DNA from: an uncultured Methanomassiliicoccus sp.
GTDB taxonomy: Archaea > Thermoplasmatota > Thermoplasmata > Methanomassiliicoccales > Methanomassiliicoccaceae
Direction of reading: 5' to 3'
DNA: 36,864 bases
Assembly: GCA_944319735.1 (NCBI GenBank)
Contig: CALUEU010000009.1
Location: forward strand, 1-36,864
Both the position numbers and the translations under genes were made by a program. This document shows, piece after piece, positions 1,393 through 3,403 of this stretch. Under the pieces are notes generated by a model. It saw only the letters and a program-made list of their open reading frames with translations. It did no database searches and was not told the DNA's origin. How positions within the stretch are numbered: the first letter of the stretch is position 1; each line of letters begins with the position of its first letter.

Positions 1393-2034
1393 TCACCCCT
1401 TAATTAATTTAGTGACCAATTCTACTGCTTCTGCTCCAGATGGGCAATACACATCTCCACCGATGCTTTCAACCCACTCCGCACTAGCTGGAGCTCCACC
1501 GAAAATGGTCTTTACACTCACATTTTCTTCCTTGATGAGGTCAACAATGTCCTTCTGAACCACTACTGTGGTTGTCATTAACGCAGATGCACCAACGACA
1601 TCGGCATTGTTTTCCTTTACGGCCTCTATGAACTTTTCAGGTGCTACATCTCTTCCAATGTCTACTACATTGAATCCGGCACCTTTCAGCATAGCTGCTA
1701 CCACATTCTTTCCGATTTCGTGAATGTCACCTAGAACTGTAGCTAATACTACAGTACCACGTGAGCTTGTAGTTCCCTTTACCATTACAGGCTCAAAGAC
1801 TTCCAAAGCTTTTTCCATAGCTTTTGAAGCTGCTAAAACCTGTGGGAGGAAGATCTTTGCTTCATCGAAAAGTTTGCTGATAGTTTCCATGCCTTTTCCT
1901 AGACCGTTTTCCACTGCGTCACCAGGGTCTATTCCGGCATCCAAAGCTTGTTTTGCTGCTGTTTCAGCAAGCTTGACGTCCCATGTCTCAATTGACTTCT
2001 TGAGACTTTCCATTATTTCTTCTTTACTGCTCAT
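1393..2034 (-). CDS. mtmC: Monomethylamine corrinoid protein MtmC, copy 1
   Basis: Carries the methyl group between MtmB and the MtbA-type methyltransferase on a B12-type cofactor. It has 213 residues, as expected: an N-terminal helical cap (about 1-90) and a Rossmann B12-binding domain with the DxHxxG motif (GDIHEIGKN), whose His at about residue 105 is the lower axial cobalt ligand. The LATVLGD, SALMTTT and FGGAPAS segments are typical. It is the first gene of a two-gene minus-strand operon with mtmB1 and is transcribed away from pylT. Its TGA stop lies in the ribosome-binding site of mtmB1. The paralogue MtmC2 is clearly divergent, so the two pairs are not a recent duplication. Confidence 0.95.
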   Translation of the reverse strand: MSSKEEIMESLKKSIETWDVKLAETAAKQALDAGIDPGDAVENGLGKGMETISKLFDEAKIFLPQVLAASKAMEKALEVFEPVMVKGTTSSRGTVVLATVLGDIHEIGKNVVAAMLKGAGFNVVDIGRDVAPEKFIEAVKENNADVVGASALMTTTVVVQKDIVDLIKEENVSVKTIFGGAPASAEWVESIGGDVYCPSGAEAVELVTKLIKG

Positions 2035-2205: not shown

Positions 2206-2214
2206 CTTTAAATA
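2206..2214 (+). promoter_or_regulatory. Probable TATA box of the pylT leader/pyl operon
   Basis: CTTTAAATA with a purine-rich BRE-like stretch (GGGAAAT) in front is a good archaeal promoter core. It predicts a start near 2237-2241, exactly where the first arm of the long leader stem begins. No TATA-like sequence is found 25-35 bases before the tRNA itself, so pylT is probably processed from this longer transcript. A second weaker candidate, CTTATATA at 2326-2333, would start near 2357. Confidence 0.5.
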
Positions 2215-2240
2215 ATATACAAAAGTTTCACATTCTGTGT

Positions 2241-2363
2241 GAGGAAATGAACTCGTCAACTATACGATTCAAAAACATATCTCATTTTGGAAATGACTCT
2301 GAATTTGAGATGGCTTCTCACTCCTCTTATATACACCCTATACAAGATGAGAATCATTTCCTC
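2241..2363 (+). ncRNA. Structured 5' leader upstream of tRNA-Pyl
   Basis: GAGGAAATGA (2241-2250) and TCATTTCCTC (2354-2363) are perfect 10-base complements and would close a 123-base domain. Inside, TCATTT-TGG-AAATGA (2282-2296) is a 6-bp hairpin, ATCTCA (2278-2283) can pair with TGAGAT (2306-2311), and CTTCTCA (2314-2320) with TGAGAAG (2365-2371). Some of these helices exclude one another, so alternative folds are possible. An open frame across the region (from ATG 2247) runs straight through the tRNA and is judged non-coding. Function unknown; a regulatory RNA controlling pylT/pyl expression is an inference. Confidence 0.4.
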
Positions 2364-2412
2364 ATGAGAAGTCCTGCTGTTCGATCATATCCCCCTGCGA
2401 TTGAATACAGGG

Positions 2413-2453
2413 AAGTGAATAGCCCTGAGATTCTGCGCCTCAGGGCGTCACTT
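2413..2453 (+). ncRNA. Long hairpin 11 bases before tRNA-Pyl
   Basis: AAGTGA (2413-2418) pairs with TCACTT (2448-2453), and GCCCTGAG (2422-2429) pairs with CTCAGGGC (2439-2446), giving 14 bp around a 9-base loop with a small internal loop. It ends 11 bases before the mature 5' end of pylT and could guide processing or act as an attenuator. The 5' word GAAGTG (2412-2417) could instead pair with CACTTC in the 3' acceptor strand of the tRNA (2526-2531), so hairpin formation may protect tRNA folding. Confidence 0.5.
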
Positions 2454-2464
2454 GACCACAATGT

Positions 2465-2535
2465 GGAGTGTTGGTCCGGGACCACCAGGCCTCTACAGCC
2501 ACGGCAGCCGGGTTCAACTCCCGGGCACTTCGCCA
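2465..2535 (+). tRNA. pylT: tRNA-Pyl (anticodon CUA)
   Basis: Amber-decoding tRNA charged with pyrrolysine by PylS. The 71-base gene includes CCA. Acceptor GGAGTGT/GCACTTC forms 7 bp with two G-U pairs; discriminator G; very small D arm GGTC-CGG-GACC; T arm CCGGG-TTCAACT-CCCGG; three-base variable loop CAG. The anticodon loop CTCTACA (2491-2497) has CTA at 2493-2495. The anticodon stem is broken: GGC/GCC next to the loop, then an unpaired A opposite AC, then CC/GG. A broken anticodon stem, small D-loop and short variable loop are known features of tRNA-Pyl in Methanomassiliicoccales. pylS starts 40 bases downstream. Confidence 0.93.
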
Positions 2536-2575
2536 TTAATTTTAATGATATACTTCTAGTGGAGGCCTCTTAAAC

Positions 2576-3403
2576 ATGCCGGTTGAATGGACAGCTTCTC
2601 AAAAACAGAGGCTAAAAGAATTGGGAATATCTGCTGATGCAGATAGAGAGTTTGATAGTGCAGAAGAAAGAGAAGAAGAATTCAAGAATATTACTTCTGA
2701 ACATCTGTCTAAAGTAAGAAAAGATATCAGGCATATGCTGGATTGTCCGGAAAGACATCAGTTGTCACAGATCGAATCACTTCTTGCTCAGGCACTGGTT
2801 GATGCTGGATTTATAGAAGTAAAAACTCCCAGCATAATTTCCCGCAGTGCATTGGAAAAGATGGGTATTGACAGATCTCACCCTTTGCATGAACAGGTAT
2901 TTTGGTTAGACGAGAAAAGATGCCTTCGGCCGATGCTTGCACCTAATCTCTATTTCATGATGAGACATATGTATAGATACAGCAAAGGCCCGCTGAAGCT
3001 CTTTGAAATCGGATCCTGTTTTAGAAAAGAGTCAAAAGGATCCAATCACTTGGAAGAATTTACAATGCTGAATCTTGTAGAGATGGCACCAGATAATGAT
3101 CCATCTGATCAGCTTTTGATGCATATTAAAACTATAATGGATGCTGTTGGATTGGAATACAGCCTTGTAGAATGTGAATCGGATGTTTATGTTAAAACTC
3201 TTGATGTGGAAATAAATGGAGTGGAAGTAGCATCTGGTGCTGTAGGTCCGCATAAATTGGATCCGGCCCATGGAATAACCCAGCCTTGGGCAGGAGTGGG
3301 ATTTGGGCTGGAACGCCTTTCTATGATGAAGTATGGAATGGACAACATCAAAAAGTCTGGCCGCAGCTTGATTTATCTCAGAGGAGTCAGACTGGATATA
3401 TAG
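2576..3403 (+). CDS. pylS: Pyrrolysyl-tRNA synthetase, catalytic domain only
   Basis: Ligates pyrrolysine to tRNA-Pyl. The 275 residues are the class II catalytic core: motif 2 (FEIGSCFRKES, about 143-153), LEEFTMLNLVEM, and motif 3 with GFGLERLSMMKYG near 256-268. The separate N-terminal tRNA-binding PylSn domain of Methanosarcina PylS is absent, and no pylSn gene is seen here; this is the known delta-pylSn type of the order. GGAGG precedes ATG 2576. The gene stops with UAG, the codon its own product reassigns; reading through would add Pyl plus 43 residues inside the start of pylB. It is the first protein gene of the pylS-B-C-D-ramA operon. Confidence 0.96.
   Translation: MPVEWTASQKQRLKELGISADADREFDSAEEREEEFKNITSEHLSKVRKDIRHMLDCPERHQLSQIESLLAQALVDAGFIEVKTPSIISRSALEKMGIDRSHPLHEQVFWLDEKRCLRPMLAPNLYFMMRHMYRYSKGPLKLFEIGSCFRKESKGSNHLEEFTMLNLVEMAPDNDPSDQLLMHIKTIMDAVGLEYSLVECESDVYVKTLDVEINGVEVASGAVGPHKLDPAHGITQPWAGVGFGLERLSMMKYGMDNIKKSGRSLIYLRGVRLDI

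Follow-up and report, generated by a model that had tools for sequence, protein, structure and literature searches.

A shared reading frame through the tRNA-Pyl gene up to the pylS start codon in one family of Methanomassiliicoccales

The RNA fold that precedes the tRNA-Pyl gene (pylT) of an uncultured Methanomassiliicoccus sp. is real, yet it is not conserved, and the feature shared with related loci is a reading frame, which the preliminary description of the region does not mention. In the window, i.e. the whole stretch of 36,864 nucleotides that we analysed, this frame begins with an ATG at position 2247 and remains open for 108 codons across the leader, the whole of pylT and the trailer, with its TAA (2571-2573) placed 2 bases before the ATG of the pyrrolysyl-tRNA synthetase gene pylS at 2576. 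That the frame ends at the pylS start suggests a passage of ribosomes over the tRNA that couples enzyme production to the leader. Sequence comparison of the loci shows conservation of an open frame, of start signals and of an end point, without conservation of the peptide or of the RNA structure. From this pattern we infer translation of the leader ORF, its coupling to pylS and a competition with tRNA processing.

Locus organization and the leader reading frame

According to the ORF list, the gene order rightward from the divergent mtmCB genes is leader, pylT, pylS, pylB, pylC and pylD. The divergent neighbour mtmC (1393..2034, minus strand) codes for the monomethylamine corrinoid protein and is followed by mtmB (20-1387), which harbours an in-frame TAG. 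On the plus strand, the leader ORF (2247..2573) spans the entire tRNA-Pyl gene (2465..2535), which has the anticodon CTA and an encoded CCA. The tRNA was recognized from its sequence and from the pylT genes of relatives, to which it is 92-97% identical, and a genome search found it only once in the window genome, as in most relatives. Both ARAGORN and the Rfam tRNA model missed the tRNA-Pyl at 2465-2535, and automatic annotation may thus overlook it. The junction TAA-AC-ATG (2571..2578, plus strand) separates the leader ORF from pylS (2576..3403, plus strand), which codes for the catalytic domain only.

A consensus scan identified a TATA-like box, TTTAAATA, at 2207..2214 on the plus strand, 40 nt 5' of the leader ATG, and a second one at 2164-2171; a transcription start at ~2237-2240 is plausible. 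No TATA-like box was detected near the tRNA in the same scan of the window, as had been claimed in the preliminary description, according to which pylT has no proximal promoter. In the relatives likewise, a TATA-like box is found 5' of a leader of ~165-230 nt; with the window included, boxes are located at -39 to -64 from the leader ATG in 9/9 readable loci (L003 is unreadable at that position). Because no promoter-like box lies close to pylT and the relatives have such an upstream box, the pyl transcript probably begins with the leader; the earlier assignment of the leader to that transcript is thereby supported as probable. Of note, the leader ORF is preceded by two TATA-like boxes at a distance of exactly 43 nt from each other in the window and in L004, L005, L006, L008 and L011, possibly reflecting tandem promoters or binding-site spacing.

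The comparison drew on 147 genomes of the order, from which we extracted pylS loci plus the sequence upstream of them. Ten loci including the window, from four genera of one family, have the same surroundings, namely a divergent mtmC (detected by tblastn 5' of pylT in 10/10), ~400 nt, pylT and pylS; the mtmC-pylT distance is above ~400 nt in two loci that contain stretches of N, and the upstream region is cut by N in L002 and L003. In all ten, an ATG located ~40-65 nt past the TATA box is followed by 54-76 stop-free leader codons, and the tRNA is read through, making a leader ORF of 93-113 codons in total. Its stop is found from 2 nt before to 11 nt inside the pylS start, with offsets of -4 (five loci), -1, +1, +2, -11 and -11 nt, and with a stop/start overlap of the NTGA type in five loci and TGATG in one. 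As in coupled gene pairs, the upstream stop therefore overlaps the downstream start or lies within a few nucleotides of it. The pylS start codon, inside the overlap with the leader ORF, is apparently CTG in L003 and L004 and TTG in L006 and L011.

Among the other pylT-pylS loci whose upstream sequence was long enough, a comparable frame was found in only 3 of 76 (L010, L014 and L097; Fisher p = 8e-11 against 10/10). The group of ten corresponds to the best pylS matches and to the mtmC context instead of being delimited by the frame, although the context was recognized after the frames had been seen. One of the three, L010, belongs to another family and was left out of the ten; its frame is open, but it has no mtmC context, and all its trailer frames are open. 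Five further loci of the family to which the ten belong, i.e. L012, L013, L053 and the second cassettes of genomes G015 and G018 (L039 and L066, respectively), are located away from mtmC and have no leader ORF. Two genomes of this family, G010 (98% complete) and G021, yielded neither a full pylS nor a tRNA-Pyl match and seem to have lost the pyl system.

In each leader, 2-10 stops interrupt the other two frames, as compared with none in the ATG frame. In dinucleotide shuffles, the probability of an open ATG frame is 0.003-0.21 per leader (0.011 for the window), and the product for one locus per lineage (L001, L002, L005, L007, L008 and L011) is ~1e-8 if independence is assumed. Between the tRNA and pylS, one of the three frames is open in five loci and two in four, and the leader frame always joins an open tRNA/trailer frame, with a chance expectation of ~8e-4 over loci and ~0.01 by lineage. 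Since the ten loci share ancestry, p-values that assume independence are too small. When the observed substitutions were placed at random in three sister pairs, the frame stayed open with probabilities of ~0.12, 0.17 and 0.03 (ranges 0.11-0.21 for two pairs and 0.006-0.055 for the third), which are modest values taken alone.

The leader ORF of the window is preceded by a Shine-Dalgarno-like GAGGAA (2241..2246, plus strand), with a spacing of only 2 nt, which aligns with GGAGGAGAATGARCTTGC in two relatives. Matches of this type of 5 nt were found in 4/9 readable loci, compared with 5% of other ATGs, and matches of at least 4 nt in 7/9, compared with 21%; L004 and L011 have no clear Shine-Dalgarno sequence at the leader ORF. 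In all ten loci, codon usage is tilted in favour of the ORF frame (z above 0), though far more weakly than in real genes. The Shine-Dalgarno-like matches, the upkeep of the frame and this codon bias suggest that the leader ORF is probably translated.

The leader peptides are homologous within genera, with L003/L004, L005/L006 and L007/L009 aligning far above shuffles. However, their pN/pS ratios are 0.96, 0.63 and 0.90, respectively, versus ~0.1-0.2 for pylS, and the start codon is the sole invariant codon 5' of the tRNA in the leader ORF alignment. The leader ORFs contain no in-frame UAG and no conserved run of regulatory codons. The tRNA is entered as GAG GGT TGG in most loci and as GGA GTG TTG in L002-L004, and because this phase differs among groups, conservation is also lacking in the peptide segment coded by the tRNA. 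Searches of Pfam and NCBIfam returned no match above noise, and we rejected membership of a known protein family. Because the peptide drifts and its frame within the tRNA varies, selection seems to act on the passage of ribosomes rather than on their product.

The RNA fold upstream of pylT

The fold that first drew attention to this region was confirmed in the window. Its helix, previously described as a perfect long-range pairing of 10 bp between GAGGAAATGA (2241-2250) and TCATTTCCTC (2354-2363), in fact comprises 11 bp, owing to one further pair between 2240 and 2364 (arms at 2240..2250 and 2354..2364, plus strand). Inverted repeats of at least 10 and at least 11 bp occur in 2.4% and 0.4%, respectively, of dinucleotide shuffles of the leader. 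The RNA fold of 2241-2371 has an energy of -32.2 kcal/mol (z -3.81, with 0/200 shuffles as good), and z-scores of -4.56 and -4.70 were obtained for the leader alone and for 2236-2575, which includes the leader, the tRNA and the trailer. The 5' arm of the helix, as was not reported before, coincides with the Shine-Dalgarno-like stretch and the ATG of the leader ORF. The long helix would thus hide the ribosome site, and it is possible that the fold tunes leader translation in the window species alone. However, the predicted accessibility of the start site in the window, 0.30, falls inside the 0.15-0.57 of relatives without special structure, and the 3' arm is transcribed ~100 nt after the site that it would hide.

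Closer to the tRNA, a strong hairpin (2413..2453, plus strand; AAGTGA...TCACTT with GCCCTGAG/CTCAGGGC) directly precedes pylT; in the leader comparison it is not conserved among the relatives. We also observed that the anticodon arm of tRNA-Pyl, AGGCCUCUAC (2488-2497), can pair along 10 complementary bases with the Shine-Dalgarno region of pylS, GUGGAGGCCU (2559-2568), and that this pairing (-19.4 kcal/mol) beats all 200 shuffles in the window. It is strong only there and in L006 and not in the other relatives, and it was rejected as a conserved switch.

No DNA relative of the leader was found in 15 genomes of the family, and its own genome has one copy of it, for which reasons a MITE or another mobile inverted-repeat element was rejected. 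No Rfam family matched it, and the T-box covariance model gave no match at the gathering score or at E values up to 5. The leaders of ten relatives yielded no consensus structure (the alignment fold was empty), and hence no conserved mutually exclusive hairpins. When the 10-bp helix of the window was projected on the alignment, the pairing amounted to 58.7%, compared with 55.4% in shuffled columns, and its covariation level was equalled by 71/500 shuffles; as the leaders align poorly, this test is weak for distant relatives and compatible with analogous structures at other positions. The comparison of mtmC-pylT regions that had been proposed as a check of the helix revealed neither excess pairing nor excess covariation over shuffles, an outcome that had been set beforehand as counting against the regulatory RNA. 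Only 2/11 leaders fold clearly better than chance, those of the window (z -4.6) and of L003 (z -4.5), and the value for L004, the sister of L003, is z -0.9. If used at all, such a leader structure would be specific to single species.

Putative coupling of pylS translation to the leader

We consider it reasonably probable that a translated leader ORF couples the translation of pylS to the leader across the embedded tRNA gene, with tRNA excision as a probable competitor. The leader would be the 5' part of a pylT-pylS-pylB-pylC-pylD transcript and would carry a translated ORF with an irrelevant product. Ribosomes would load just past the transcription start, read 54-76 leader codons, cross the tRNA-Pyl sequence before its excision, using any frame that is open, and terminate on or beside the pylS start codon, where they would re-initiate or uncover that start. 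Occupation of the tRNA sequence by a ribosome and folding into an excision-ready tRNA would be mutually exclusive. Translation of the leader would thus favour synthetase synthesis and protect the transcript, and excision of the tRNA would be favoured in leaders that are not translated. As the same RNA must also yield tRNA-Pyl, the two processes should compete, and continuous translation of the leader would be costly, a point against this reading.

In coupled genes of archaea and bacteria, -4 and -1 are the commonest spacings, and in Haloferax and E. coli coupling is almost lost at a distance of ~20 nt (PMC10666635, PMC12548453). An ORF that ended before pylT, more than 100 nt from pylS, could therefore not couple, and coupling needs a frame that runs through the tRNA to the pylS start. 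The weak pylS start codons of four loci also fit with coupling. Against it, pylS has its own Shine-Dalgarno sequence in most loci and could be translated uncoupled. The tRNA does not appear to be an intron joining the leader ORF to pylS, since the pylS frame of the window trailer contains stops, and its excision would generate no fusion.

Other explanations account for parts of these observations. A rather unlikely one is that the leader ORF is translated only to provide ribosome cover against FttA-dependent termination before pylS, the coupling to the pylS start being incidental. It is helped by the attribution of archaeal polarity to the termination factor FttA (PMC12548453), and it would account for maintenance of the frame without conservation of the peptide. 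However, it provides no reason for the frame to reach the pylS start, at NTGA or adjacent positions, rather than an earlier stop in the trailer, and other pyl cassettes manage without such an ORF. The homology of the leader peptides within genera and the tilted codon usage would also be expected of a genuine small, fast-evolving protein gene that overlaps pylT and has a tRNA-coded segment in its C-terminus. We find this improbable given pN/pS values of 0.9-1.0 in two pairs, the lack of Pfam or NCBIfam matches above noise and the reading of the tRNA part in different frames in different groups.

The structured RNA sensing Pyl, lysine or uncharged tRNA that had been suggested, and that would control the pyl operon, is in our opinion equally improbable, even though the fold of the window is very stable, its helix covers the ribosome site and ATG of the leader ORF, and the L003 leader is also strongly folded. 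The arguments against it are the missing consensus structure, a helix pairing at shuffle level, folding that is not clearly better than chance in nine of the eleven leaders, and the lack of both an Rfam match and a DNA homologue in the family; moreover, the leader start region of the window is no less accessible than those of several unstructured relatives. That an untranslated leader merely happens to be open in these species is highly improbable. The single loci are indeed only mildly improbable and all descend from one ancestor, but chance would hardly explain the difference from the 76 other loci, the agreement of the leader frame with both the open trailer frame and the pylS start, and the enrichment in ribosome sites.

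The coupling that we favour has partial counterparts among known systems. T-box and other tRNA-sensing leaders are structured leaders 5' of aminoacyl-tRNA synthetase genes; the pyl leader shares this arrangement and differs in that it has no Rfam match, its fold is not conserved and the tRNA lies in cis inside it. The trpL-type attenuators have a short translated leader peptide ahead of an amino-acid-related operon. The pyl leader is similarly short and probably translated, but it has no conserved codon run, in-frame UAG or alternative hairpins. The pyl arrangement may also be compared with the termination-reinitiation pairs of archaea and bacteria with NTGA or TGATG motifs (PMC6728339, PMC10666635), in which the genes are on the same strand and the upstream stop touches or overlaps the downstream start, as with the -4 and -1 offsets of 6/10 loci here. 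Unlike in those pairs, no conserved protein is specified by the upstream pyl frame, within which lies an entire tRNA gene that must be excised from the same RNA. Bacterial leader genes that boost translation by reinitiation (PMC4833913) also end near the start of the structural gene and have an apparently irrelevant product, but the pyl leader is archaeal, has 93-113 codons and crosses a tRNA gene.

The searchable literature on the pyl genes of Methanomassiliicoccales describes gene order and tRNA shape, and we found in it no leader ORF or leader RNA; nor did we find an account of any conserved frame that crosses a tRNA gene, most subscription papers being outside the search. As the 22nd amino acid depends on a tRNA that reads a stop codon, the cell must balance this tRNA with its synthetase, and the papers found contain no description of how Methanomassiliicoccales do so. 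If the proposed coupling is true, a conserved frame that guides ribosomes over the tRNA gene as far as the start of the synthetase gene would offer a simple means of keeping this balance, and would be an unusual case of a tRNA gene wholly within a maintained reading frame, in cassettes that are widely used tools. More tentatively, a single RNA might have two exclusive fates, serving as the pyrrolysyl-tRNA synthetase mRNA when the leader is translated through the tRNA, and otherwise letting the tRNA fold and be cut out; in this cassette for genetic code expansion, the leader ORF would then determine how much synthetase is made relative to the suppressor tRNA. In M. luminyensis, methylamines strongly induce mtmBC1, and contig 4 has two mtmBC copies split by the pyl cluster (PMC5688252). 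Locus L011 appears to be this contig-4 cassette. Given that induction of mtmBC1, the leader transcript may be produced at times of high demand for synthetase.
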